Virus record (IMG/VR): IMGVR_UViG_3300024262_006558
Coordinates: 62,001-126,000 of that record
Origin: a virus
Length of the DNA: 64,000 bases
Direction: 5' to 3' (one strand)
Shown: positions 18,833-60,328 of the stretch, piece after piece
How the letters are laid out: the number at the start of each line of letters is the position of its first letter
Numbering within the stretch: position 1 is the first letter of the stretch
Made by a program: the position numbers and the translations under genes
The notes under the pieces: generated by a model
Seen by the model: the letters and a program-made list of their open reading frames with translations, nothing else
What the model was told of the DNA's origin: nothing
Databases searched by the model: none

Positions 18833-20821
18833 TTAATTAATTGTTACGCTATAGTTAGCAGTAGATGGATACCCACCCCCTCCAATTGTTGTTGTATAAA
18901 CATCATATGAAACAGGGTTGCCTCCAGCATCATCAACATTAAATGTTGTAACTGAAAAAGATCCAGTCACATCAGCATTACTACTTTCCACATAAAGGAC
19001 TGTTGCCGTCTTCCCTGCAGGAACCGCAAAGAACACTAAAGGCTCACTTGCCGCAATTGTAATAGTAAACGAACCATTATTACTTCCATTTAAGAAAACT
19101 CTATCTGTACCAGTTCTTACCTCACTTGAGTTTGCTGGCAATATTCCAGTATCATAAAAGCCATAATACCTACCTGTTATAGTATTTGAGTTATCCGATA
19201 CGTTTCCAGCAACCCTACTACCATCTAAAGAAGTGTCTACACCACCTTTTGAATCGTAATAAAGTCCTGTTCCAATATCATGATTTACTAAAACGTTCCA
19301 AACATTAGACCCAAAGGCAACTTGTGAAGTTGTGAAACCTGTATCACTTGTTGTGATTGAAGTTGGGTTCGTTGAAGTGTCTACAACTGAAGTTGTTGAT
19401 ATACCTGGTCCAGTAAATGTAAATTTATTAGCAAGACCTACTAAATCTGGTCCAGAACTTCCATCACCATTCTCAATGTCACCCTGATTAAAAGTAGCAG
19501 TTAAAGTAGGGTCTAAAGTAGTACCCACCTCAACTGTAGACAATGAAGGTGTAAAAGATAAAATTACAGACTTAGCTACAGATATTGTAGAGAATACTGT
19601 AGGGAATAAGTAATTATCTATAAAATCTGAAAAAGTTTGCCCAGTAACATCACCAACAGTCAGGCCTCCTGGTATTGTCCAACCAGGTGAAGTAGTTGCT
19701 GGAGGTATAGATGAAGTGTATGTATCTTGATAGTTTATCCCTTTAAACAGCTCACTCATATTAGTGCCACCAGAATAGATGGTTGTAGCACTTAATATAT
19801 TAAGTTCAGTTGTTCCAGTGACTTCTAAATCATAAAAAGTACCACCAGTAATATTTACTGTTGGATTTAAGTCGGTACCTCCAGTATAAGTGTTTATACC
19901 ATCCTGTACACGAGTAACATCTAATTGCTCCGTTTCTGAAGCAATATTTCTAATTATAGTGTCAAGATCTGTAGATCCAGAATAAATAGTATCTCCAGAA
20001 ATGTTAGTAGCATAAAACCCTACATTTGAGTGCCAGTCTCCAGCATCATCAGAAAGTATGCTCGATGAACTGCCGTCAGTCTGTCCAGAAATTAATGTAA
20101 TACCTCCACCTACAGCGCTTATATGACTTCCGCTATAATTAAGATCAATGTTATTATCCTTAGTTTGAACAACTTCAGTGTTTAAAGTCGTGGCCGTACC
20201 TAATACTTCTAAATTTCCAGTGATGGAAACATTACCACTTATAGTTCCGCCAGATTTATCATATTTAGAAGAAACATCTAAATTACTTATAATATCTCCT
20301 AAATCTGTACTTCCTGAATAAAATGTAGTTGCGCTAATTGCTCCCTGAGCAAAAGCGTTTGGCATATAAACAGTATCTTCAGAAGTTCCAGTAATTCCAG
20401 TCCCTCCTAAAATTGTAGAGCCAGTAGCTGAATTAATCAGTAAACCTCCCTGCCCTCCTATTATAGAAGAGTAATTTCCATTTACTGTCCCACCTGTTCC
20501 TCCAGCTATAAAAGAGAAATCTCCAGAAGCAGTATTATCTCCCTCTACAGTGGAAATTGATCCGTTTACCGTATTAGCTGAGAAAGGGGATGTTGCCCCA
20601 GTCAAAGCTGAAGACCCTACTACATCCCAAGTACCTAGAGCCTTGTCTACTAATATGTATAATGTTTTATCAGATTCAACGAAAACTTGAAGTCCGTCAA
20701 ATTCTCTACCTGAACCAACTAAACTATCTCTTGTAGCTAAATCTACAGCTATATATCTATCTCCATCGATAGGGTCAGCTCCTGCTATTCTTACTCCAAA
20801 AGGTAAATTAAAAAACGCCAT
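18833..20821 (-). CDS. Tail fibre sharing modules with three other fibre genes
   Basis: 662 residues, a clear mosaic. Residues 1-70 match the neighbour at 18291-18818. YadA-like and DTVYMPNAFAQGAISATTFYSG segments follow. The block from SKYDKSGGTISGNVSITG (about 180-275) matches the fibre at 1602-4493. One fibre module comes next. The C-terminal 260 residues (GQTFSDFIDNYLFPTVFS onward) match the fibre at 20851-21927, including an 80-bp identical DNA stretch. The shared C-terminal domain is beta-rich and ends in TTIGGGGYPSTANYSVTI. Confidence 0.83.
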   Translation of the reverse strand: MAFFNLPFGVRIAGADPIDGDRYIAVDLATRDSLVGSGREFDGLQVFVESDKTLYILVDKALGTWDVVGSSALTGATSPFSANTVNGSISTVEGDNTASGDFSFIAGGTGGTVNGNYSSIIGGQGGLLINSATGSTILGGTGITGTSEDTVYMPNAFAQGAISATTFYSGSTDLGDIISNLDVSSKYDKSGGTISGNVSITGNLEVLGTATTLNTEVVQTKDNNIDLNYSGSHISAVGGGITLISGQTDGSSSSILSDDAGDWHSNVGFYATNISGDTIYSGSTDLDTIIRNIASETEQLDVTRVQDGINTYTGGTDLNPTVNITGGTFYDLEVTGTTELNILSATTIYSGGTNMSELFKGINYQDTYTSSIPPATTSPGWTIPGGLTVGDVTGQTFSDFIDNYLFPTVFSTISVAKSVILSFTPSLSTVEVGTTLDPTLTATFNQGDIENGDGSSGPDLVGLANKFTFTGPGISTTSVVDTSTNPTSITTSDTGFTTSQVAFGSNVWNVLVNHDIGTGLYYDSKGGVDTSLDGSRVAGNVSDNSNTITGRYYGFYDTGILPANSSEVRTGTDRVFLNGSNNGSFTITIAASEPLVFFAVPAGKTATVLYVESSNADVTGSFSVTTFNVDDAGGNPVSYDVYTTTIGGGGYPSTANYSVTIN
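18918..18997. repeat. 80-bp direct repeat, copy 1
   Basis: Identical base for base, as far as I can read, to 20936-21015. Both lie in the homologous C-terminal coding region of adjacent fibre genes, while flanking sequence is clearly diverged, which indicates recent gene conversion or recombination. Confidence 0.8.
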
Positions 20822-20850
20822 TTTATTTTTTTTATTTAAATTATTATTTA

Positions 20851-21927
20851 CTAAACTATTGTTACATTATAAGTTGCGTTAGACGGGTATCCCCCCCCTC
20901 CAATTGTTGTTGTATAAATATCATATGATACAGGATTGCCTCCAGCATCATCAACATTAAATGTTGTAACTGAAAAAGATCCAGTCACATCAGCATTACT
21001 ACTTTCCACATAAAGAACTGTTGCTGATTTACCCGCTGGAACTGCAAAAAACGCTAAAGGTTCATTTGCAGATATAGATATATTAAAACTACCAGCATTA
21101 CTTCCACTTAAAAAACTTTTACTAGACCCAACTCTTACTTCATTTGAATTTGTTGGTAATATCCCAGTATTATAAAAAGCATAATACCTTCCCGTTATAG
21201 TGTTTGAGTTGTCTGAAACATTTCCAGCAACTCTATTTCCATCTAAATTGCTGGCAATATTACCTTTTGAATCAAAATAAACACCCGTACCTATACTATG
21301 TATTATGTTTACACTCCAAATATTAGAACCAAATACAGCTTTAGATATTTCATAACCTGGGTTTGATGTATTTATATTTATAGGAGAAGACATTGAACTT
21401 ATCACAACAGAAGTCGCGATCCCTGGACCAGTAAAGGTGTAGGTATTTGGTAAACCCACTAAACTTGGCCCAGCAGATCCGTTCCCGTTCTGAATTTGCC
21501 CTTGATTAAATGATGCTGTTAAAGTTTCATTTAATGAAGTTCCAACCTCTACCGTATTTAATGTAGGAGTAGCTATTAGTTGTCCTGATTTATTTGAAGA
21601 TATACTTGCGTCCGTAGTAGGGAACACATAGTTATCTATAAAGTTTGAAAATGTTTGCCCTCTTATATCCTCTACAGTAGTTCCGACTGGAACATTGATT
21701 CCTGGAGAAGTGGTTCCGCTAAATAAATTGGTTTCATATATTGTAGCAGCAGTTAGGGTTGACGCTGTTGTTAAGAATATATTAGATATATCAGTATCTC
21801 CAGAGTAAATGGTGCCACCAGATAAAGTGCTGCCACTAATTCCATTAGTAAAGTTTGTCAAACCAGTTACGGTTCCACCTGACAAATCTAAAAAATTACC
21901 CGAAGGAAATATGTATCTACCAGCCAT
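20851..21927 (-). CDS. Short tail fibre with duplicated C-terminal domain
   Basis: 358 residues, consisting mainly of one fibre module (SGSTLSGGTIYSGDTDISNIF) and the same 260-residue C-terminal domain as the preceding fibre (GQTFSNFIDNYVFPTTDAS...GGGGYPSNATYNVTIV). The N-terminus MAGRYIFPSGNFLDLSGGTV is short. It is the first gene of the minus-strand fibre series and diverges from the tail tube gene at 22096. Confidence 0.8.
   Translation of the reverse strand: MAGRYIFPSGNFLDLSGGTVTGLTNFTNGISGSTLSGGTIYSGDTDISNIFLTTASTLTAATIYETNLFSGTTSPGINVPVGTTVEDIRGQTFSNFIDNYVFPTTDASISSNKSGQLIATPTLNTVEVGTSLNETLTASFNQGQIQNGNGSAGPSLVGLPNTYTFTGPGIATSVVISSMSSPININTSNPGYEISKAVFGSNIWSVNIIHSIGTGVYFDSKGNIASNLDGNRVAGNVSDNSNTITGRYYAFYNTGILPTNSNEVRVGSSKSFLSGSNAGSFNISISANEPLAFFAVPAGKSATVLYVESSNADVTGSFSVTTFNVDDAGGNPVSYDIYTTTIGGGGYPSNATYNVTIV
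20936..21015. repeat. 80-bp direct repeat, copy 2
   Basis: Second copy of the stretch at 18918-18997; see that entry. Confidence 0.8.
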
Positions 21928-23411: not shown

Positions 23412-23429
23412 CAGGAAACTCTATTTTAT

Positions 23430-23439
23430 TATAAATAGA
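23430..23439 (-). promoter_or_regulatory. Late-promoter-like element
   Basis: Sense TCTATTTATA, about 18 nt before the ATG at 23411. Confidence 0.5.
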
Positions 23440-23533
23440 TCAGAAAAATTAATGATTACCCTTTTTATTATCCTTAATTTCATTTAAAACTCTACTATAT
23501 TCTTCCCCCACTTTCATTTATAACATAATAACA

Positions 23534-23737
23534 TTATTTGTTTCTAATATACTTTTTTTTATTTATAGATTCTCTATCTCTTTTCTTAGATGTTAAGTGC
23601 CATCTATTACATAGATCGCATAAATATGACCTAATTGGCTTAACTCCTCTATTCTTAGCTCTCTTTATCCTTTTTAAATCCTTATTAGCAGACCCTTGAG
23701 ACACGTATCTAATTTTATCACACGATTCATCATTCAT
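23534..23737 (-). CDS. Small Zn-ribbon-like protein
   Basis: 67 residues, very basic. The centre reads YLCDLCNRWHLTSKKR, a CxxC-x2-WHLT motif seen in small phage and Bacteroidota proteins; with Cys6 and the His it could bind zinc. It directly follows the 134-residue gene without a gap (stop and start adjoin at 23737/23738). Confidence 0.6.
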   Translation of the reverse strand: MNDESCDKIRYVSQGSANKDLKRIKRAKNRGVKPIRSYLCDLCNRWHLTSKKRDRESINKKKYIRNK

Positions 23738-24142
23738 CTAAAATACCTCCAGTTCTGGAACCCATCTCTTAGGAATCCTTTTAAATTTAACTTCTATTCT
23801 ATCTGGTCCGCTTCCAGAATAAATTTCCCATTTTCTATGTTTAGGATCAGGTTTTCTATCATTATACCTAAAAGGGTTTGCCGCGTTCATTTGAACCTTG
23901 TCTTTCCAGAATTTCCAAATGTCTCTATGCTTACCTCGATGCCAAAGAGATAGGTTAACAAAATATTTTTCCTTGAAAGTCTGCTCTATATATTTTTCAA
24001 CTTCTCTCAGATATCCTTTAACTAGAAAATTTCCCTTACTTGAATATACGTATGCTAAAGTGTATGCCCCGCCCCACATGCCAGTTTCTCCGCTAGCAGG
24101 AACTTCAATAACGCTTCTCCATCTTGTTTTTTGTTTACTCAT
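23738..24142 (-). CDS. Hypothetical phage protein
   Basis: 134 residues, Trp-rich and basic (WRSVIEVPASGETGMWGG, LWHRGKHRDIWKFWKDKV). No membrane segment or known catalytic motif is seen. It forms a two-gene unit with the small Zn-ribbon protein downstream. Family not recognised. Confidence 0.6.
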   Translation of the reverse strand: MSKQKTRWRSVIEVPASGETGMWGGAYTLAYVYSSKGNFLVKGYLREVEKYIEQTFKEKYFVNLSLWHRGKHRDIWKFWKDKVQMNAANPFRYNDRKPDPKHRKWEIYSGSGPDRIEVKFKRIPKRWVPELEVF

Positions 24143-24202
24143 AAGAAAATTTTTAAAGAGGAAGGTATATTGAAATTTCCTTCTATTGGGTAGATTGAGC
24201 GT

Positions 24203-24331
24203 TTATAGTTCTACTCCTTTGTGAATCAGATAATGAACATAAGCCCAACCTGCAAAGCGAGAATACCACGGGAAATTTACCAAGGGCGTATTAAGCTTTC
24301 TGTATAGCCGCCACGTTTCACCTTCCTCTAA
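24203..24331 (-). pseudogene. Truncated ORF fragment without start codon
   Basis: An open frame of 42 codons encodes a natural-looking C-terminus (WRLYRKLNTPLVNFPWYSRF, then AGWAYVHYLIHKGVEL) but an upstream in-frame TAA precedes it with no ATG, GTG or TTG in between. It is best read as the 3' remnant of a gene cut at the edge of the cassette region. A non-canonical start cannot be excluded. Confidence 0.4.
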
Positions 24332-24397
24332 TTATTTAATAAGTTAATGTCTTATATAGTACAACGAAGAAAGTTATAGAATTGTTGCGTGAAGCAA

Positions 24398-24508
24398 CTA
24401 ATTATTTTTACCCTCTTCTTGCTTTCGAACTTCATATCCACATTCTCTACTGCATGCAGGAGAAGTTTCTTTAGGTAGTGGATTGCCACAAATTGTACAT
24501 GTTCCCAT
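24398..24508 (-). CDS. 36-residue Zn-finger protein
   Basis: A very short gene starting MGTCTICGNPLP and containing CSRECGYEVRKQ, giving a C-x2-C-x11-C-x3-C zinc-binding arrangement. The start is supported by the late-promoter-like element 2 nt upstream. It lies between the small-gene array and the tail genes. Function unknown; such mini zinc ribbons are common in phages. Confidence 0.55.
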   Translation of the reverse strand: MGTCTICGNPLPKETSPACSRECGYEVRKQEEGKNN

Positions 24509-24510
24509 GT

Positions 24511-24521
24511 TAATAAATAGA
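24511..24521 (-). promoter_or_regulatory. Late-promoter-like element
   Basis: Sense TCTATTTATTA, adjoining the ATG at 24508, so the transcript would be nearly leaderless. Confidence 0.4.
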
Positions 24522-24562
24522 CAAAAAAAGATTTGTAATGATCCCTTTTTAAATATTAATTA

Positions 24563-24624
24563 CGATAACAGAAAATAAAAGATAACTCTTCGAGTCGCTT
24601 AACGCTTATCTTTATTTTCGTGTT
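24563..24624 (-). repeat. attC-like inverted repeat, tandem with the next
   Basis: Sense arms begin ACACGAAAATAAAGATAA and end TTATCTTTTATTTTCTGTTA; each arm has an unpaired base, as in attC sites. About 58 of 59 positions match the plus-strand site at 60262-60321. It abuts the next repeat with no gene between, as if a cassette had been lost. Confidence 0.7.
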
Positions 24625-24682
24625 GTATGCCATTAAAACGGTACGCTCGTACCTCGCCATACAACATGGTATATAAAACATA
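24619..24682 (-). repeat. attC-like inverted repeat
   Basis: Sense TGTTGTATGGC pairs with GGCATACAACA around a loop containing GCGTACCGTTTTAAT. The same arms and loop occur in the plus-strand site at 59684-59750, with a short insertion here. It begins 7 nt after the stop of the 52-residue gene. Confidence 0.7.
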
Positions 24683-24688
24683 CACTCA

Positions 24689-24847
24689 CTACCACTTTTC
24701 TTCTTTAAGAATTATAGGGTCAAAGGCGTAACCTAAATACGCCTTATACAGTTCAGGTCTTATCCAACCCCTATGTTTAGTTTTTAACCAAATTCCTTTT
24801 TTTATACGCCTTATTATGCGTATTTCATTCCATATACTTGTTATCAT
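24689..24847 (-). CDS. Cassette ORF, 52-residue hypothetical protein
   Basis: A complete small gene, ATG at 24847 to TAG, beginning MITSIWNEIRIIRRIKKGIW. It is basic and aromatic, with no recognised family. The stop is followed by an attC-like repeat, as for the other genes of this array. The preceding sequence (24848-24890) carries a weak partial repeat. Confidence 0.5.
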   Translation of the reverse strand: MITSIWNEIRIIRRIKKGIWLKTKHRGWIRPELYKAYLGYAFDPIILKEEKW

Positions 24848-24890
24848 AATCCGTTCGTTTTACGTTTCATATACTTACCGTTGTAACACA

Positions 24891-25181
24891 TTAGCCAACT
24901 CTCGCTAAGTGCTTTCTAAAATCTTCGTTTTCCTTTTCCATAAATTCAGTAGCCTTTTGCATACATTCAATTAGGTTGTGGTTCTTGGTTTCTATTATTT
25001 CAGCAACTCCTTTCCATTGTCTTACTTCAGATGGGCTACCTTTGTCGCTTACATTTATGAAATAACCATCTTCATAGTCATACATAAAACAGATATTTCT
25101 TTCTTTTGCCAACGCTTCAAAACGTGTTACAACATTTTGTATAGTGCATGGCTTAATTTCGTTTTCTTTATTAGTGTTCAT
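24891..25181 (-). CDS. Cassette ORF, 96-residue hypothetical protein
   Basis: Begins MNTNKENEIKPCTIQNVV. It is predicted alpha-rich with a central beta segment (ICFMYDYEDGYFINVSDKGS). No family recognised. The 3' end abuts a partial inverted repeat containing TTACAACGGTAAGTATATG. No promoter of either class is evident. Confidence 0.6.
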   Translation of the reverse strand: MNTNKENEIKPCTIQNVVTRFEALAKERNICFMYDYEDGYFINVSDKGSPSEVRQWKGVAEIIETKNHNLIECMQKATEFMEKENEDFRKHLARVG

Positions 25182-25221
25182 CCTTATTTAAGTTTTTGGT
25201 CATTTATTTAATTAGCGGTTT

Positions 25222-25262
25222 CAAATCGCCACGACACCATACAAGATGCCGTTGTGTGTAAT
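25222..25262 (-). repeat. Partial attC-like site
   Basis: Sense TTACACACAACGGCATCTTG starts 2 nt after the stop of the gene at 25264. It closely matches the left half of the plus-strand site at 58935-59007 (AACGGCATCCTGTATGATGT), but its right arm is degenerate. Confidence 0.5.
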
Positions 25263-25263
25263 A

Positions 25264-25473
25264 CTAGCAACTACCATATCTGAAACTCCCAAATCCTTCA
25301 CCTTCGTATTCAGAATCAATAAAGAACCCTAATTTATCAAGTTCCTCAATATCATCCTTGCTCACTAATTCAGGGTCAATAGCTACATAAAAGTAGTCGT
25401 GTTCACAATGGCTTGGGTTTCTTGGGTTGCCATATTTTAAAAGTATTTGTAATGCTTTAATTAAATCTTCCAT
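25264..25473 (-). CDS. Cassette ORF, 69-residue hypothetical protein
   Basis: I use ATG 25473 (MEDLIKALQILLKYGN) because the extra 15 residues from an upstream ATG run into the neighbouring inverted repeat. The protein is acidic, with IDPELVSKDDIEELDKLGFF followed by EYEGEGFGSFRYGS, reminiscent of small uncharacterised integron-cassette proteins. No function assigned. Confidence 0.6.
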   Translation of the reverse strand: MEDLIKALQILLKYGNPRNPSHCEHDYFYVAIDPELVSKDDIEELDKLGFFIDSEYEGEGFGSFRYGSC

Positions 25474-25504
25474 CTTTCTATTTAGTTTGTGGCTTAAATT
25501 CCGT

Positions 25505-25606
25505 ACTACACACAACAATGTATATAGTTTATAAGCCTAATTAATATTATTTTTCAATTTGTAAATTTGTGCTATGGCTTACAAAACCATATACTCAACG
25601 TTATGC
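25505..25606 (-). repeat. Long attC-like inverted repeat
   Basis: About 100 nt. Sense GAGTATATGGTTTTGTAAGCC pairs imperfectly with GGCTTATAAACTATATAC around a 40-nt loop. The outer ends are GCATAACG and TTGTTGTGTGTAGTACGG. It begins 7 nt after the stop of the gene at 25613. Confidence 0.65.
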
Positions 25607-25612
25607 TTAACA

Positions 25613-25870
25613 CTATTGCATTAATTCTAACATAGCGTCTATACCATGTATTTGTTTAGTTGCTTTGAGTGTATCGTCTTCTTTGCTCTCTATATTTAAA
25701 GAGTAGCTTTTGCCATAACAAACTACTTTATCACTATGTATGTGGCAAAATCCAGCACTTATAGGTTCAAGGTGTTTAAAAGTCGAGTGTTCTATTGTTG
25801 TCGGGAAAATTATAATTTCGTCATATTCTCCTAATCTTACGTATTTCTGTTTTGTATCGTACATTTTCAA
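25613..25870 (-). CDS. Cassette ORF, 85-residue hypothetical protein
   Basis: Begins MKMYDTKQKYVRLGEYDEII and ends IHGIDAMLELMQ. It appears beta-rich with a central FCHIHSDKVVCYG segment. No family recognised. One gene, one following inverted repeat, same direction as its neighbours. Confidence 0.6.
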   Translation of the reverse strand: MKMYDTKQKYVRLGEYDEIIIFPTTIEHSTFKHLEPISAGFCHIHSDKVVCYGKSYSLNIESKEDDTLKATKQIHGIDAMLELMQ

Positions 25871-25902
25871 TTTTAGTTTAGTGGTTTAACAATCCGTGAT
25901 AA

Positions 25903-25957
25903 GCATAACACAACCTATAAAGCCAAAAAAAAGGCTTATAGCTTTGTGCATTAGGCA
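25903..25957 (-). repeat. attC-like inverted repeat
   Basis: Sense CACAAAGCTATAAGCC pairs with GGCTTTATAGGTTGTG around an eight-T loop, with GTTATGC at the end. Unpaired bases (AA opposite GT) interrupt the stem. It starts 3 nt after the stop of the gene at 25961. Confidence 0.7.
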
Positions 25958-25960
25958 CAA

Positions 25961-26185
25961 TTAAGAAACGAACTCATTAAATTCATCTTCCTTAATTTCT
26001 CGTGCTTTACTATTCGTTACACCACCATACTTTTTAGATACCTTTAAAACCGCATCATCTTCATTTAATGCAAATGTGTAAGCACTCGAAGGTGTACAGT
26101 AAGGTCTTGATACCCTATAAAATTTAACTGTGCCTAACATTGTGTATAGCACATTGCTTTCGGTGTTTTTTGATACTGTATTCAT
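25961..26185 (-). CDS. Cassette ORF, 74-residue hypothetical protein
   Basis: Begins MNTVSKNTESNVLYTMLGTV. A short beta region (KFYRVSRPYCTPSSAYTFAL) is followed by ALNEDDAVLKVSKKYGG, which looks like a small fold that recognises no cofactor I can name. Same cassette arrangement as its neighbours. Confidence 0.58.
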   Translation of the reverse strand: MNTVSKNTESNVLYTMLGTVKFYRVSRPYCTPSSAYTFALNEDDAVLKVSKKYGGVTNSKAREIKEDEFNEFVS

Positions 26186-26213
26186 AGTTTTAAGTTTTTT
26201 ATTTTCAATTTAA

Positions 26214-26254
26214 GTTAGTGAGGCAACGCGCCATACACTCGTTCGTTATAGTGC
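26214..26254 (-). repeat. Short, weak attC-like site
   Basis: Sense GCACTATAACGAACGAGTGT, then GGCGCGTTGCC and CACTAACTT follow the stop of the gene at 26258. Pairing is poor compared with the other sites; it may be a truncated copy. Confidence 0.35.
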
Positions 26255-26257
26255 ATA

Positions 26258-26440
26258 TTATTGCTTTACTTCTTTACCACAATCAAAACACTCGTATTCT
26301 GTTTCGCTTATTGGTTTTTGCATACTTGGCTGCACACAATCGCAATAAAACGTACCCTTCGGCACAATAACATTATCTATATTTAATAGCTTGTTTTCTG
26401 CTTCCTTTTTACCTTCGTTGTACATTTGAAAATCATTCAT
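26258..26440 (-). CDS. Cassette ORF, 60-residue Zn-ribbon protein
   Basis: Begins MNDFQMYNEGKKEAENKLLN and contains CDCVQPSMQKPI and YECFDCGKEV, that is C-x-C plus C-x2-C, which could hold one zinc ion. No DNA-binding or enzyme motif is visible beyond the ribbon. One of a series of single-gene units. Confidence 0.6.
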   Translation of the reverse strand: MNDFQMYNEGKKEAENKLLNIDNVIVPKGTFYCDCVQPSMQKPISETEYECFDCGKEVKQ

Positions 26441-26500
26441 AATTCATATTTTTAAGTTATTAATCGCTACTAAAACATAGACCTTACATTATATTTAATG

Positions 26501-26698
26501 CTACTTATGTAGTTCTAAACAACGGTATCTAAAATTATATTCATCGTACCAAAAACTTCTACAATTCCACATATTTATAGCATCCCCATAAACATTATTA
26601 TCAAACTTTAACCCTCTTTCTTCTGCTTGTTTGCAACTGTCTATCACTTTAAATCTGTGATAAAAGCATACAGTCATAAATCTTAATATTTTTTTCAT
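26501..26698 (-). CDS. Cassette ORF, 65-residue hypothetical protein
   Basis: Begins MKKILRFMTVCFYHRFKVID. It is aromatic-rich with a central DAINMWNCRSFWYDEYNF. The start is uncertain, as Met8 is an alternative. The downstream 60 nt carry only a weak partial repeat (GTAGCATTAAA...TTTTAGTAGCG) whose end resembles the cassette boundaries elsewhere. Confidence 0.5.
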   Translation of the reverse strand: MKKILRFMTVCFYHRFKVIDSCKQAEERGLKFDNNVYGDAINMWNCRSFWYDEYNFRYRCLELHK

Positions 26699-26732
26699 TT
26701 TATCTATTTTGTTTTTAGTTAATTAACCGCAC

Positions 26733-26790
26733 TAAAATATAACACGGTATAAAATGGCATTAAAACGCCATCTATACAACCGTTATATGC
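26733..26790 (-). repeat. attC-like inverted repeat
   Basis: Sense GCATATAACGGTTGTATAGA and ATGGC pair with GCCATTTTATACCGTGTTAT around the loop GTTTTAAT. It is the most regular site of this array. It begins 3 nt after the stop of the gene at 26793. Confidence 0.72.
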
Positions 26791-26792
26791 AA

Positions 26793-27101
26793 TTATAGTT
26801 TTAGTATTTGTTTAATGTCTGAATAACTAAACGTGCTACTTTTGAATTGATTCTTATCATTAGGGTTATACTTACCTATTTTATGACAATCTCTTTGTAT
26901 ATGATACAATAAATCACCAGTAGCGTACAGACTGCCATCTTTATTTATGCTGTAAACTACCCCTTCTTTTACCGTGTACAAATCTCTTCTTGCAACATAA
27001 TCTCTACCACAATAACACAAAGATATTTCCGCAAACAACCCACCTTCAAGCTCTCCACTTATTCTTAAATTTTCGGATAGTTCTTTTTCTATTAAATCCA
27101 T
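26793..27101 (-). CDS. Cassette ORF, 102-residue hypothetical protein
   Basis: Begins MDLIEKELSENLRISGELEG. A CYCGRDYVARRDLYTVKEG segment is followed by a helical end (SYSDIKQILKL). No family recognised. It is the first clear unit of the minus-strand array; the 155 nt upstream (27102-27256) hold only a half repeat (GCCGTTTACTATATGCTGTA) and no gene. Confidence 0.6.
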   Translation of the reverse strand: MDLIEKELSENLRISGELEGGLFAEISLCYCGRDYVARRDLYTVKEGVVYSINKDGSLYATGDLLYHIQRDCHKIGKYNPNDKNQFKSSTFSYSDIKQILKL

Positions 27102-27256
27102 TCTATTAAGTTTATCGGTTAATAATCAACTGCATACAGCATATAGTAAACGGCAATACAAAACTTCTACTTTAACATTATGAGCAACATTTTAACCATT
27201 TCTTTATTTGTGGTTATTTATCCGTAAAATAAAACATTTTATAGCTGTACTCATTA

Positions 27257-27895
27257 TCACCCTATTAGCTTAGTGTTTTGTTGAATTAACAATTGAGCAC
27301 CTTCTGAATCTAGATCAAAAAACAAAGACATTTTTTTAACTAGTTCTTGCATGCCCTTTTTGATGTTTTCAAAGAACTCAAGATTATCTTTAGTGTATTC
27401 AATAAACGTCATCCCATCCAATACGGTCCAGTGAATATTATTTACTGAAGAGACTTTATGATCCTCATCTACTGGAAAATACTCATTAGACTTCCCATTA
27501 AATACCTCCATGAAAATTTTATAATCAATTCCAATAGCGCAATCTGGAGCAGTAAAAGCATCGAACCCTTTTATCTTGCGCGACACGCCTTCAATCGTAC
27601 CTGAATAACTACCTTCACTTACACTATTCATCGTTAGAGAAGTTGTTGCTTTGCATCTGTAAGCTATTACAAGGCGTTCACTTTTTTTAAATTCATGATA
27701 CTTTGGTATGGCTTTATATATAGCTTCTGTCAGCTCAGCTTCTGTGTTGTAGCCAGCATTACTAACTCCCGTCAAATTAAAGAACTCCTCATCTATCCCT
27801 CTAATTTCAAAACCATATTTTTGAGTATAAAACAAAGGGTAGGACACTGGATGTTCTGTGCCAATTCTAAATTCTTTTTTACCAACTTTAGCCAT
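27257..27895 (-). CDS. Hypothetical phage protein, 212 residues
   Basis: Begins MAKVGKKEFRIGTEHPVSYP. Mixed alpha/beta with a C-terminal helix (ENIKKGMQELVKKMSLFFDL). No enzyme motif is seen. It lies between the tail sheath terminator and the cassette array, and may be a phage gene carried beside the array. Function unknown. Confidence 0.62.
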   Translation of the reverse strand: MAKVGKKEFRIGTEHPVSYPLFYTQKYGFEIRGIDEEFFNLTGVSNAGYNTEAELTEAIYKAIPKYHEFKKSERLVIAYRCKATTSLTMNSVSEGSYSGTIEGVSRKIKGFDAFTAPDCAIGIDYKIFMEVFNGKSNEYFPVDEDHKVSSVNNIHWTVLDGMTFIEYTKDNLEFFENIKKGMQELVKKMSLFFDLDSEGAQLLIQQNTKLIG

Positions 27896-27974
27896 AACAT
27901 ATTTCTTTTGTATGATTTAATAACGAATTAATTTTAAATTTGTTGCCTATGAATCCGTTATAATATTATTACTT

Positions 27975-27993
27975 AATCGGAAATTTTCCGATT
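27975..27993. promoter_or_regulatory. Palindrome, possible operator
   Basis: AATCGGAAA-T-TTTCCGATT is a near-perfect 19-bp palindrome about 80 nt upstream of the start at 27895. It has no T-run in either direction, so a protein-binding site is likelier than a terminator. Confidence 0.35.
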
Positions 27994-28023
27994 ATCATAT
28001 CTCATATTTACATTTTTAGCAAA

Positions 28024-28053
28024 AAAAAAGAGACCCTTTTGAGGTCTCTTTTT
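28024..28053 (-). terminator. Terminator after tail sheath gene
   Basis: Stem AAGAGACC/GGTCTCTT with a 7-nt loop, followed on the minus strand by nine T. It lies 25 nt past the stop of the sheath gene. Confidence 0.85.
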
Positions 28054-28076
28054 ATATATTTGATTATTAATCTCTG

Positions 28077-57825: not shown

Positions 57826-57925
57826 TCTTATTTACATGCTGTTAATAAAACTAGGGCAACGTTTAACGTTTTCTAGTAGATTATAATATGCACTCTACCA
57901 TGTGCCCGACATCGGCAACATGGTT

Positions 57926-58058
57926 TTATGTTGAATTAAATAGGGGTGGGATTAAATGAACGTCTGCACTAGTCGAGTTGAAAATATACTTGCAAGTTGG
58001 TACTAAAGCCAACTATCCTAGCCAACGGGCTTTGCGGTTCACCCTATTTAATGTAACG
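57926..58058 (+). repeat. Long inverted repeat, attC-like, reversed polarity
   Basis: GTTGAATTAAATAGGGGTG pairs with CACCCTATTTAATGTAAC over a loop of about 95 nt. It starts with GTT and ends with AAC, the reverse of most sites here. The next site overlaps its right end. Confidence 0.5.
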
Positions 58059-58139
58059 CTTTGTGTATGGTTAGTAAACCCTTGCACAGACTTTCAAAAT
58101 TAGTATAAACCTTGGTGGGTTTATTACCTACAATGTTAA
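58053..58139 (+). repeat. attC-like inverted repeat before the first cassette gene
   Basis: TAACGCTTTGTGTATGGTTA and GTAAACCC pair with GGGTTTATTACCTACAATGT and TA; several bases are unpaired, mainly on the left arm. The loop holds about 38 nt. It ends 45 nt before the ATG at 58184. Confidence 0.62.
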
Positions 58140-58183
58140 ATGTATGCTTTGCTAGAGATTACGGACAGATAACCACTAAAACA

Positions 58184-58489
58184 ATGGACTTAAAAAAGAG
58201 AATAGAAGAAATTACACAAAACGGAACGCTTGAAAGCGGTGAACAAATAACCTATGTAGATACCGATGACCTTTACTTGTTGCTGAATGAAGTAAACTCT
58301 AGTGAAGTCATACATCTTGTTAGCGATTGGAATGATTGGGTATATGGATCACCTACATCAATAATAGATGGGAGTCATATTGAAGTTATGTGGTCTGACA
58401 ACTCAGTCACTAAAGTTTTTTATGAATGGAGAAGTAAATCTATGGCACATAAGTTACCACCAATAAAGTGGAGGTATTCTAATAGCTAA
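58184..58489 (+). CDS. Cassette ORF, 101-residue hypothetical protein
   Basis: Starts at ATG 58184 (MDLKKRIEEITQNGTLESGE); the earlier ATG at 58112 lies inside the inverted repeat. It is acidic, with DDLYLLLNEVNSSEVIHLVS and a Trp-rich C-terminus. The stop codon is the first base set of the next attC-like site. Function unknown. Confidence 0.6.
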   Translation: MDLKKRIEEITQNGTLESGEQITYVDTDDLYLLLNEVNSSEVIHLVSDWNDWVYGSPTSIIDGSHIEVMWSDNSVTKVFYEWRSKSMAHKLPPIKWRYSNS

Positions 58490-58550
58490 CGGTTTGGCTA
58501 TGTGCTGAACGTAGAGCAACGGAGTTTTGCATATAGCTAGTGTTATATGC
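58485..58550 (+). repeat. attC-like inverted repeat
   Basis: TAACGGTTTGGCTATGTGC pairs with GCATATAGCTAGTGTTA; G, TT and other bases stay unpaired. It overlaps the stop codon of the gene at 58184-58489. Confidence 0.7.
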
Positions 58551-58581
58551 TTTTAATTATTAACAACTAAAGATTATAAAA

Positions 58582-58932
58582 ATGAGTGAAACAGTACATT
58601 ACAGAGGGATTGCTACTAAAATTGAGCAACCAAACGACAAGACATTAATTGATGTCGCAAAAAGTATTTTAACAGAACGTAACAAAGAAATAGCCGACTA
58701 TTATGACAATGTAATAGAGTGTTTGTGTGATAGCTATTATAGAGAATTTTTCTACCATTCAAAAACACAGACCCTTTACAAATTAGACAATAATGAATAC
58801 GAGCCTGATGAAGATATAATAAGAGCAGAACCGAAAGAAAACGGGACTATTGAATATGAGTTAAGATATTATAACGGTGGTGCTGGATTTGATGAATGTA
58901 TGGAAGAGGCTTTTGATAAGCTCGATGCTTAA
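58582..58932 (+). CDS. Cassette ORF, 116-residue hypothetical protein
   Basis: MSETVHYRGIATKIEQPNDK opens it, with NVIECLCDSYYREFFYHSKT in the middle and YNGGAGFDECMEEAFDKLDA at the end. A complete, plausible soluble protein with no family that I recognise. The stop is 2 nt before the next repeat. Confidence 0.65.
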   Translation: MSETVHYRGIATKIEQPNDKTLIDVAKSILTERNKEIADYYDNVIECLCDSYYREFFYHSKTQTLYKLDNNEYEPDEDIIRAEPKENGTIEYELRYYNGGAGFDECMEEAFDKLDA

Positions 58933-58934
58933 TT

Positions 58935-59007
58935 GCATATAACGGCATCCTGTATGATGTCGTGAAACGAAGTGGAATGCATTCATACACCGTGTTGTGT
59001 GTAGTGC
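58935..59007 (+). repeat. attC-like inverted repeat
   Basis: GCATATAACGGCATCCTGTA with TGATGT pairs with TCATACACCGTGTTGTGTGT. Its left half matches the minus-strand half-site at 25222-25262. The trailing AGTGCGGATTA recurs after the next site, marking the cassette boundary. Confidence 0.7.
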
Positions 59008-59036
59008 GGATTATTAACTGATAACAAAATTAAAAG

Positions 59037-59216
59037 ATGAATGTATTTGATGAATTTTTAATGGAATCTGAAAAGGAACAATTAAAAGACAACCGACTGA
59101 AAGAACAGAAAGATAAAAAAGACTACTCGTATGAACACGATGGTAGAATAGAAACATGTGACGATTGTAGAACACCTATAAACTCACACGGACACTGCCC
59201 TAGATGCGATTACTAG
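59037..59216 (+). CDS. Cassette ORF, 59-residue Zn-ribbon protein
   Basis: MNVFDEFLMESEKEQLKDNR is followed by a charged helix and CDDCRTPINSHGHCPRCDY, a four-Cys ribbon at residues 41-57. The stop is directly followed by the short repeat at 59217. Function unknown. Confidence 0.58.
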   Translation: MNVFDEFLMESEKEQLKDNRLKEQKDKKDYSYEHDGRIETCDDCRTPINSHGHCPRCDY

Positions 59217-59250
59217 CATTACACACAACGGATGGTAATATGAATAGTGC
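59217..59250 (+). repeat. Short attC-like site
   Basis: CATTACACACAACGG matches the pairing arm of other sites (compare GTTGTGTGTAGTGC at 58993), but the right arm is nearly lost, ending TGAATAGTGCGGATTA. Probably a deleted site. Confidence 0.45.
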
Positions 59251-59267
59251 GGATTAAAAACATAAAA

Positions 59268-59435
59268 ATGGCAAAGACACGAGAACAAAAAAGAATTGAA
59301 AGTGCGGATAAAGTTTGTAGAGAACTTAGATACCAAATAGTTAAATATGGATTGATAGGTGATTGGGACGCATTAAATAAGCACTTTAATTCTTGGATGA
59401 ATAACGCTAAGAAATCTAAATACGACAGACCCTAG
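59268..59435 (+). CDS. Cassette ORF, 55-residue hypothetical protein
   Basis: Starts at ATG 59268 (MAKTREQKRIESADKVCREL) and ends AKKSKYDRP. Basic and helical. A GTG seven codons upstream lies in the repeat boundary and is not used. Function unknown. Confidence 0.55.
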   Translation: MAKTREQKRIESADKVCRELRYQIVKYGLIGDWDALNKHFNSWMNNAKKSKYDRP

Positions 59436-59436
59436 C

Positions 59437-59497
59437 ATTATTTATATTACGTGTTGTGCGCACGTTTTAATTGCGACACAACGCTAAGTATAACAAA
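59437..59497 (+). repeat. attC-like inverted repeat
   Basis: ACGTGTTGTGCGC pairs with GCGACACAACGC with one unpaired base; loop ACGTTTTAATT. It follows the stop by 1 nt. The outer bases (TTACG/CTAAG) are imperfect. Confidence 0.55.
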
Positions 59498-59514
59498 CGG
59501 AAAATTTACGACTT

Positions 59515-59673
59515 ATGAGATTTGAATTAATGCAATGGAAATGGTATAGGAAGTGGAAAGGTGGCTCTTATTACCTTATATGGAATTGGCTACCTATGAA
59601 CACTTTTTGGAGCGACAAACTTATTACAAGCTGTGGAGGCAGAGCCATTAAAGAGGAACACTACCCTAAGTAA
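59515..59673 (+). CDS. Cassette ORF, 52-residue hypothetical protein
   Basis: MRFELMQWKWYRKWKGGSYY is aromatic and basic, ending AIKEEHYPK. No family recognised. It lies between two attC-like sites and is in phase with them. Confidence 0.5.
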   Translation: MRFELMQWKWYRKWKGGSYYLIWNWLPMNTFWSDKLITSCGGRAIKEEHYPK

Positions 59674-59683
59674 ATTTTATGTT

Positions 59684-59750
59684 TTGTTATACAATGTTGT
59701 ATGGCAAAGCGTACCGTTTTAATGGCATACAACGGTTGAGTATAAACGTA
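59684..59750 (+). repeat. attC-like inverted repeat
   Basis: GTTATACAATGTTGTATGGC pairs with GGCATACAACGGTTGAGTAT (and AAC). The core matches the minus-strand site at 24619-24682, including GCGTACCGTTTTAATGGC. Confidence 0.68.
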
Positions 59751-59791
59751 GTGTTTAACTGAACTTAATTTGAAACACAAAACTTAAAATT

Positions 59792-59992
59792 ATGATAAAA
59801 AGATTGATTGAAAAACTGAAAACATTACGTTTATACTTTGTTAGAAAACGTTGTTTTGAGGTGTATTTCACAGATACCAAAAGTGGAAAGGAAGGAAGAA
59901 TTAATTTATGGGTGAAAGATGTCGATGAAGTAGAACCTTACTTTGAAAAACACTTTCCACATTTGGAATTATATGATATAGGAGAATGTTGA
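59792..59992 (+). CDS. Cassette ORF, 66-residue hypothetical protein
   Basis: MIKRLIEKLKTLRLYFVRKR is strongly basic and followed by FEVYFTDTKSGKEGRINLWV and an acidic end. No family recognised. The following repeat starts 11 nt after the stop. Confidence 0.58.
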   Translation: MIKRLIEKLKTLRLYFVRKRCFEVYFTDTKSGKEGRINLWVKDVDEVEPYFEKHFPHLELYDIGEC

Positions 59993-60002
59993 TTACAATG
60001 TT

Positions 60003-60066
60003 TTCTAACGACCTGTGTAAAATTTCGTGTGAGGCACGAGCAATGAATTTTAAACCTTGTTAGCGT
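60003..60066 (+). repeat. attC-like inverted repeat
   Basis: CTAACGACCTGTGTAAAATT pairs with AATTTTAAACCTTGTTAGCG, with an unpaired GA/CTGT set. It has the TAAC...GTTAG ends of classical integron recombination sites. Confidence 0.72.
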
Positions 60067-60102
60067 TTCGTTTTTGAGCGTTGGCATTTAAAAACTAAAA
60101 AG

Positions 60103-60264
60103 ATGAAAGTAAGTATTCAGTTCACAAAAGAAGAATTAAGATTATTAAAAAAGGCGTTATTTTTTGGAATAACACATAATGAAAACAACCAAGAAGCAAA
60201 TAAAATGAATGAATTAGATGCGAAAATGAATTTACTGTGTGCGTTGGCAGAAAATGAACGCTAA
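60103..60264 (+). CDS. Cassette ORF, 53-residue hypothetical protein
   Basis: MKVSIQFTKEELRLLKKALF is helical and ends LLCALAENER. The TAA stop is the first three bases of the following site, a feature often seen in integron cassettes. Function unknown. Confidence 0.6.
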   Translation: MKVSIQFTKEELRLLKKALFFGITHNENNQEANKMNELDAKMNLLCALAENER

Positions 60265-60328
60265 CACGAAAATAAAGATAAGCGTTAAGCGACTCAAAGA
60301 GTTATCTTTTATTTTCTGTTATAACGCG
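60259..60328 (+). repeat. Terminal attC-like inverted repeat
   Basis: TAACACGAAAATAAAGATAA pairs with TTATCTTTTATTTTCTGTTA, one extra C on the left and one extra T on the right arm. Nearly identical to the minus-strand site at 24563-24624. Confidence 0.75.

Follow-up and report, generated by a model that had tools for sequence, protein, structure and literature searches.

Array A2, which occupies positions 24565-27101 on the minus strand of the 64,000-nucleotide stretch of DNA analysed here (the window), is probably an integron-type cassette array of the clusters-of-attC-without-integrase (CALIN) kind, carried by a jumbo phage. The window belongs to a 388,594-bp myovirus contig (G000) with four arrays of tiny genes, and the phage probably infects Bacteroidota. 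The description 'integron-like cassette array' in an initial annotation of this DNA is supported by cassette-specific complementary ends and covarying attC-like hairpins, by the occurrence of the site type in recombinase-linked bacterial arrays, and by the absence of the array from the nearest relatives of the phage. The inverted polarity of its ORFs is atypical for a cassette array.

The minus-strand ORFs listed in that annotation (at 24689, 24891, 25264, 25613, 25961, 26258, 26501 and 26793) are all present with 52-102 codons (Table 1), internal ATGs being the probable starts of two of them (25264 and 25613), and the late-promoter element (CTATTTAT-type) that stands before many structural genes is indeed absent at every one of them. 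No enrichment of promoter-like TAnnTTTG was seen before cassettes or in hairpins, and Rfam and tRNA scans of the window returned no matches. Pfam and PHROGs searches gave nothing informative on the functions of the cassette ORFs, and a PHROG search with ORF 24689..24847 gave no match. It had also been claimed that each ORF ends shortly before an inverted repeat; most stops do lie within a few nucleotides of an AAC-ended box, but the repeat itself is found at only some junctions, about half being without a convincing hairpin. ORF 24891..25181 terminates in a GTGTTACAAC box (24880-24889), after which the hairpin is not preserved. The mini-unit ahead of the terminal hairpin has a close copy near 59700 in A1.

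Table 1. Features of arrays A1 and A2 and of the block around A2
Feature	Position	Strand	Basis
Block that nearest relatives L001/L026 lack between sheath and gene 23049	23412..28076		comparison
A2 terminal hairpin (anchor), ACGAAAATAAAGATAAGCGTTAAGCGAC[T/C]CGAAG[A/G]GTTATCTTTTATTTTCTGTTAT	24565..24621	-	copies and fold
Mini-unit without ORF, GTTGTATGGC..GGCATACAAC, ahead of anchor	24622..24665	-	sequence and fold
Cassette-like ORF, 52 aa, 5' box degenerate	24689..24847	-	ORF list
Cassette ORF, 96 aa	24891..25181	-	ORF list and fold
Complete cassette, GTTGTGTGTAGTAC ... ORF (ATG ~25473 to 25264) ... ATTACACACAAC	25251..25516	-	complementary ends, repeat search and scans
attC-like site between cassettes	25505..25611	-	model R1, E=1.8e-4
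Complete cassette, GTTATGCTTATCAC ... ORF (ATG 25864 to 25613) ... GTTAAGCATAAC	25600..25909	-	complementary ends, repeat search
attC-like site, strong hairpin	25896..25961	-	fold z -3.7; R1 E 0.05
Cassette ORF, 74 aa	25961..26185	-	ORF list
Cassette ORF, 60 aa, degenerate sites at both flanks	26258..26440	-	ORF list and fold
Cassette, GTTATATTTTAGTG ... ORF 26698-26501 (65 aa, phrog_35589) ... CATTAAATATAATG	26487..26743	-	near-complementary ends
attC-like site, best-preserved of A2	26730..26793	-	R1 E=5.9e-7; fold z -1.75
First cassette ORF, 102 aa	26793..27101	-	ORF list
Array A1	57900..60322	+	R1 sites 58479-58553, 58932-59005, 59998-60070
A1 cassettes	58542-58943, 58994-59229, 59840-60009, 60059-60265	+	scans
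A1 anchor	60266-60322	+	sequence copy

An intact unit consists of a GTT box, an ORF and a complementary AAC box, and the boxes are complementary to the other end of their own cassette and not to the neighbour across the junction (mean 9.2/10 within cassettes, a selected value, vs 5.4/10 across junctions). A repeat search recovered such ends in A2 at 25251-25264 with 25503-25516 and at 25600-25613 with 25896-25909, and the CALIN arrangement of one ORF with a site and own-end complementary boxes is clear in A1, A3 and A4, and in A2 for two cassettes or more. This mutual complementarity of the ends within each intact cassette, the strongest evidence, had escaped the initial annotation. Of the integron core GTTRRRY/RYYYAAC, GTT and AAC are invariant here, but the inner box is relaxed (GTTATAT, GTTGTGT, GTTATGC). 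A loose search for GTT/AAC boxes alone scored 542 vs about 447 in shuffles, with one control motif scoring higher; as this search did not stand above shuffles, hairpin criteria and a covariance model of the sites (R1), trained on other viral contigs with G000 left out, were added.

With these additions the sites have the character of the single-stranded attC hairpins of CALINs, with asymmetric unpaired spacers and a conserved core, as judged from covariation (0.574 in the site model vs 0.185 when shuffled and at most 0.114 when slid) and from strand stability, the model strand being the more stable in folding in 74 of 85 viral sites. Against shuffles, single-strand folding in A2 gives a z of -3.3 for 24560-24692 and of -3.7 for 25895-25966, both clear, and a marginal -1.75 for 26728-26798, the other junctions being no better than shuffles, while R1 matches A2 at 26732-26793 (E 6e-7) and 25505-25611 (E 2e-4) and marginally at 25898-25961 (E 0.05) and 25122-25262 (E 0.4). 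At E<=1, 18 of the 19 matches across 388.6 kb of G000 lie within the four arrays, and 25 related loci without arrays (423 kb) gave one match; the model recovers sites almost only where arrays are.

A plain run of small phage genes split by intrinsic terminators or processing hairpins would account for hairpins that come after stop codons, some of them T-rich (25895-25966), and for homologues of cassette ORFs that are ordinary genes in other huge phages, as is that of the 25600..25909 ORF in LR745206. Terminators would not lead one to expect that a gene's two ends are complementary, that hairpin families recur in phages unrelated to each other and break sharply at AAC, or that recombinase-linked bacterial arrays carry the same sites; the cassette-end rule and the breakpoints held in common already contradict this explanation, which is extremely improbable.

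The suggestion that A2 is an insertion is borne out by comparison with related phages, in that the distance from the sheath gene to gene 23049 is about 230 bp in L001/L026 vs 4.7 kb here; the missing block is wider than A2 because three non-cassette ORFs also lie within it. A2 is an older, partly decayed array, the most decayed of the four, and R1 finds intact sites kept in A1, A3 and A4. Such decayed junctions, the absence of an integrase from G000 and the identical cassette content of a near-identical strain (L020) would all suit an inert relic, in which an old cassette capture was followed by the end of recombination and the ORFs are now fixed phage genes. We regard this as unlikely, if deserving of real weight: against it stand the intact sites of the other arrays and a cassette gene common to G000 and L137 (dN/dS 0.10) that is under purifying selection with different neighbours, though without its own GTT box in L137.

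The cassette ORFs run opposite to attC polarity, as shown by hairpin shape and by hairpin inheritance. The ORFs of a CALIN have the direction of attC (R'' then R'), whereas those of G000 are inverted in 14 of 14 cases; the totals are 79:9 inverted for viral cassettes and 123:23 normal for bacterial arrays. Some IMG/VR contigs in the viral sample have no terminase or sheath match, and their viral origin therefore rests on the IMG/VR collection. The long spacer comes first in the ORF sense in 79 of 88 viral cassettes vs 15 of 84 in a recombinase-linked and 8 of 62 in an IntI-linked bacterial sample (Fisher p ~1e-22), sense to antisense R1 matches number 79:6 in viral and 7:24 in bacterial arrays, and a G.T at position 11 is found in 41/74 viral cassettes vs 1/75 bacterial ones. 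Among viral pairs with near-identical hairpins the GTT-side flank is common in 22 and the AAC side in 1, and duplicated cassettes in the IntI-linked locus L110 show the same inheritance. Since strand asymmetry and breakpoints match those of bacterial arrays, the recombination point is placed between AAC and the hairpin, and the inverted unit reads hairpin-GTT box-5'UTR-ORF-AAC box.

It is very improbable that these are plain bacterial IntI cassettes of normal polarity taken from a host integron, even with intI common in Bacteroidota (105/395 genomes) and with the demonstration that IntI1 in E. coli recombined a site from Polaribacter phage P12002L, the top strand not being recombined (Qi 2023; PMC9892861). 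The phage ORFs have the opposite polarity, the cassettes fall far short of bacterial ones in size (median ORF of 80 aa, as against 163-217 in bacterial arrays), and few of their ORFs match bacterial array loci. IntI integrons (TIGR02249; for example L109, L123, L126) share with G000 the cassette-end rule, the hairpin asymmetry and the breakpoint, but differ in normal ORF polarity, longer cassettes and an adjacent IntI. Canonical intI was also rejected as the partner of R1-type sites, as it is not enriched in R1-positive genomes (10/35 vs 105/395).

Neither G000 nor 12 other array-bearing records, except for a short one in Panino, encode a PF00589 protein, and G000 is not a complete integron with intI (TIGR02249), attI and promoter, having an anchor-like hairpin instead of a known attI. 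This anchor is the same 57-nt hairpin at the end of every G000 array, with five copies, one per array segment, each behind a different AAC box; if the array is read in the canonical attC direction, it occupies the attI position. A search of 395 Bacteroidota genomes gave a single match to the anchor, with 3 mismatches, which pointed to no host.

The same AT-rich site type matched by R1 is found in Bacteroidota arrays beside a tyrosine recombinase of about 370 aa (L187, L188, L190 and L193 among others), which, unlike G000, have the recombinase upstream of the array and ORFs in normal polarity. In a sample of 20 loci drawn by similarity of the recombinase, 12 have an array whose first cassette begins 30-400 bp downstream of that gene, and the hairpin ahead of the first GTT in arrays beside the non-IntI recombinase resembles the phage anchor. 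No array was adjacent to the Crocinitomicaceae, Flaviramulus and Winogradskyella recombinases (L077-L079). The array-linked enzymes score 191-214 against TIGR02249 (cut-off 265) and have no IntI-specific insertion ahead of the HxLRH box, and IntI groups separately from them (100/100); by these sequence features they would fall outside the IntI family. The recombinase type is present in 23/35 R1-positive genomes vs 113/395 overall. With the same site type beside such a recombinase, a host enzyme of this kind is therefore the likely mobiliser of the phage cassettes, a role that sequence comparison suggests.

In the mechanism we propose, a host tyrosine recombinase (of the I2-less Bacteroidota type, or IntI) would recombine folded single strands in trans, new cassettes would join the array at its 3' end, where the anchor lies, and transcripts reading through from a phage early promoter upstream would yield the small proteins of A3 and A4. 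The inverted ORFs accord with such a layout: for a cassette that enters at a 3' anchor to be read, its ORF has to point towards the anchor. A rival route of spread for the cassettes would be homologous recombination, or template switching, where hairpins resemble one another, with no site-specific recombinase; the recurring hairpin families, and one hairpin whose start codon leads into one ORF body in G000 and another in LR756500, might point that way. This is improbable given breaks at AAC on one side only (22:1) and cassette-specific boxes whose complementarity is maintained, something that a circle excised with a folded site would need.

The four arrays, with genes facing opposite to those of bacterial integron cassettes, suggest that the integron format for swapping genes exists in a form maintained by phages themselves, which may depend on bacterial recombinases for its shuffling. 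Rather more tentatively, with somewhat less than an even chance in our estimation, Bacteroidota phages would have a cassette pool to themselves, made up of inverted, self-contained units (hairpin-5'UTR-ORF) together with attI-like anchors, and an undescribed integron class whose recombinase is without the IntI-specific domain would shuffle these in trans, in an exchange network between phages and bacteria parallel to classical integrons. If so, jumbo phages would swap small accessory genes, putatively host-takeover or counter-defence factors, by integron logic, with polarity inverted for a 3' insertion site. The findings also point to an integron-like Bacteroidota recombinase class missed by IntI score thresholds, and open both the strand choice of these enzymes and the function of the IntI-specific insertion to direct testing.

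Phage attC arrays themselves are already known, CALINs having been described in phages such as P12002L, in which attC directions are divergent and no systematic inversion, repeated anchor or non-IntI platform was described (Qi 2023; PMC9892861); these three features appear to be new, and our literature search, which covered part of the field, found neither an integron whose recombinase is other than IntI nor one whose cassettes are inverted. As in G000, the attC-type sites of P12002L are without an integrase, and they match R1 on the coding strand. The array of Maribacter phage Panino (PP540027) likewise consists of small-gene cassettes sited between structural genes and, although this is a 77-kb phage with different cassette genes, one of its hairpins with GTT box is 98.6% identical to A1 and its terminal hairpin is of similar build.

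All eight small ORFs that the initial annotation placed in array A2 are present, and the array is a real one of the integron type, one of four in G000 and itself decayed. G000 is the 388,594-bp IMG/VR virus record of which the window is positions 62001-126000; its sheath and tube genes are those of a myovirus resembling Flavobacterium phages. The inverted repeat said to follow each ORF is less uniform: when eight junctions were folded, a clear fold relative to shuffled sequence was seen at 24560-24692 and 25895-25966 and a marginal one at 26728-26798, the remainder being unremarkable. More telling than junction folding is the complementarity between the two ends of one cassette (a GTT box, an ORF and an AAC box), as between 25251-25264 and 25503-25516, and between 25600-25613 and 25896-25909. 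A loose search for the boxes by itself gave no excess over shuffles; linked junctions scored with hairpins numbered 154 in viral loci versus 56 in one shuffle, and 116 in bacterial loci versus 11 in a shuffle, an excess lying mostly in a few arrays. In this linked set, boxes belonging to the same cassette agree at 9.2/10 positions (a selected value) and boxes on opposite sides of a junction at 5.4/10; were the repeats terminators, the opposite would be expected, with boxes matching across the junction and not within the cassette.

Locations of the cassette arrays and of array-linked tyrosine recombinases
Feature	Location	Strand	Remark
Array A1	window 57.9-60.3 kb		
Array A2	window 24565-27101	minus	subject of this analysis
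Array A3	G000 ~241.6-244.4 kb		outside window
Array A4	G000 ~247.7-249.15 kb		outside window
~370-aa tyrosine recombinase	L187:1883-2989		upstream of array
~370-aa tyrosine recombinase	L188:14768-15895		upstream of array
~370-aa tyrosine recombinase	L190:9788-10849		upstream of array
~370-aa tyrosine recombinase	L193:6760-7866		upstream of array

A covariance model of the attC-like site, R1, was built from 13 sites in other viral contigs and none in G000; its helix covariation is 0.574, against 0.185 with columns shuffled and at most 0.114 when slid. Its G000 matches at E<=1 number 19, of which 18 lie within the four arrays and 14 reach E<=0.0035; on 25 related loci (423 kb) it gives one match. 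This confinement, with the complementary cassette ends, bears out the designation as an integron-like cassette array. R1 also matches in the huge phage LR756500, Maribacter phage Panino, Polaribacter phage P12002L and many IMG/VR contigs, and integron remnants in phages are already known (Qi et al. 2023, PMC9892861). Two very large arrays, in L145 (IMGVR 3300025839_000011) and L059/L142 (3300033388_003553), have about 20 detected cassettes each over 13-15 kb, with ORFs nearly all in the same direction.

The proposal that A2 is an insertion splitting the structural module holds in part. L001 and L026, the closest relatives (sheath identity 68%), lack the array and have gene 23049 within about 230 bp after the sheath gene, but the corresponding 4.7 kb of G000 holds ORF 27257-27895 and ORFs 23738 and 23534 besides A2, and in other relatives tail-fibre-like genes occupy the interval; the site is thus variable, and what was inserted is larger than the array. 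The tail-fibre-like genes 20851 and 18833 (window 18833-21927) have repeated segments in common, and relatives L003-L025 carry many fragments of them between sheath and tube.

The polarity of the phage cassettes is unexpectedly and consistently inverted. In IntI-adjacent arrays (L109, L123, L126 and others), read in ORF sense, the order is AAC, short spacer, stem, then stem, long spacer and GTT, whereas in phage sites the long spacer comes first, the ORFs being opposite to site polarity. Among cassettes with one dominant ORF, 79 viral ones are inverted and 9 normal, compared with 15 and 69 in bacterial arrays sampled around a non-IntI recombinase and 8 and 54 in IntI-linked cassettes (Fisher p about 1e-22). 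The R1 strand agrees with ORF sense at 14/14 sites in G000, with sense:antisense ratios of 65:6 in other viral and 7:24 in bacterial sequences. Its fold is more stable than that of the complementary strand in viral, recombinase-linked and IntI-linked groups alike. At position 11 of the boxes, 41 of 74 viral cassettes have a G.T mismatch, a position that is mostly Watson-Crick in bacteria.

Breakpoints were sought in pairs of hairpins at least 80% alike with differing neighbours, where the flank inherited with the hairpin marks the cut. The GTT-side flank is common to 22 viral pairs and the AAC side to one, and duplicated cassettes of the IntI-linked array L110 show the same inheritance; wider bacterial sets gave no clear side, and with the L110 duplicates alone as the bacterial half of the comparison, cuts appear to fall at the same place with respect to the hairpin in phages and bacteria, the phage ORFs having been turned round. 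The phage unit runs hairpin, GTT box, 5'UTR, ORF, AAC box. One G000 cassette gene is 89% alike in contig L137 (dN/dS 0.10), where the same AAC box is followed by a different hairpin and the upstream sequence is unrelated, without a GTT box of its own. A hairpin containing a start codon and 18 codons is 95.6% identical between window 59731-59844 and LR756500 (L053:8001-8114) and leads into different ORF bodies, a site that gives a common N-terminus.

With a median of 80 aa, the ORFs of viral cassettes are short, and Pfam and PHROGs gave nothing informative on their functions. Three have homologues that are ordinary genes in the huge phages LR745206, LR756501 and LR756504, so the cargo is at least partly phage-derived.

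Every array segment in G000 closes with the same 57-nt hairpin, the anchor, which begins right after a variable AAC box, has unrelated phage DNA beyond it and, with the array read in the canonical direction, takes the attI position. In A3 and A4 an early-promoter-like element follows the anchor and a second precedes the array by one gene. From these positions we infer that new cassettes would enter at the anchor, lengthening a transcribed unit at its 3' end, and be expressed by read-through. The early-promoter-like GTACATArTwTCCCC..CCGTATATATT has about 42 copies, only at G000 231-275 kb and on the + strand. A CTATTTAT(A) element, the reverse complement of which resembles a T4-type late promoter, stands upstream of structural genes (e.g. 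window 18254, 21927, 31622) and, as first noted, is absent before cassettes.

G000 has no PF00589 protein; of 12 further records with arrays, only Panino has one, and it is short. Canonical intI exceeds the cut-off in 105 of 395 Bacteroidota genomes, without enrichment among those with R1 sites. Many of these intI genomes have textbook arrays, yet published surveys record hardly any integrons for the phylum; IntegronFinder 2.0 reports one complete integron in Bacteroidetes proper (PMC9024848). A different, ~370-aa recombinase occurs in 23 of 35 R1-positive genomes versus 113 of 395 overall, at an E-value cut that lets in some shorter relatives, and lies 30-100 bp upstream of arrays, in line with them, in L187, L188, L190 and L193. 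Among 20 loci chosen only by recombinase similarity (L199-L218), a cassette starts within 400 bp downstream of the recombinase's end in 12; together these loci make up integron-like platforms of Bacteroidota. The catalytic motifs of the protein are intact, and it has an additional region at the N-terminus. The IntI-specific insertion is absent, the score is under the IntI cut-off, and the tree keeps the protein separate from IntI; some of the arrays beside it, not all, have a strong R1 match. Its enrichment and position make this host-type enzyme the best candidate for a recombinase that would mobilise the phage cassettes in trans. A partial literature search found no description of inverted phage cassettes or of array-linked recombinases without the IntI insertion; IntI1 recombined one P12002L site in E. 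coli (PMC9892861). Panino, which has been isolated and whose host is known, has an array of some five small cassettes placed between structural genes (L054 7240-8340; PP540027) and would be a convenient test system.
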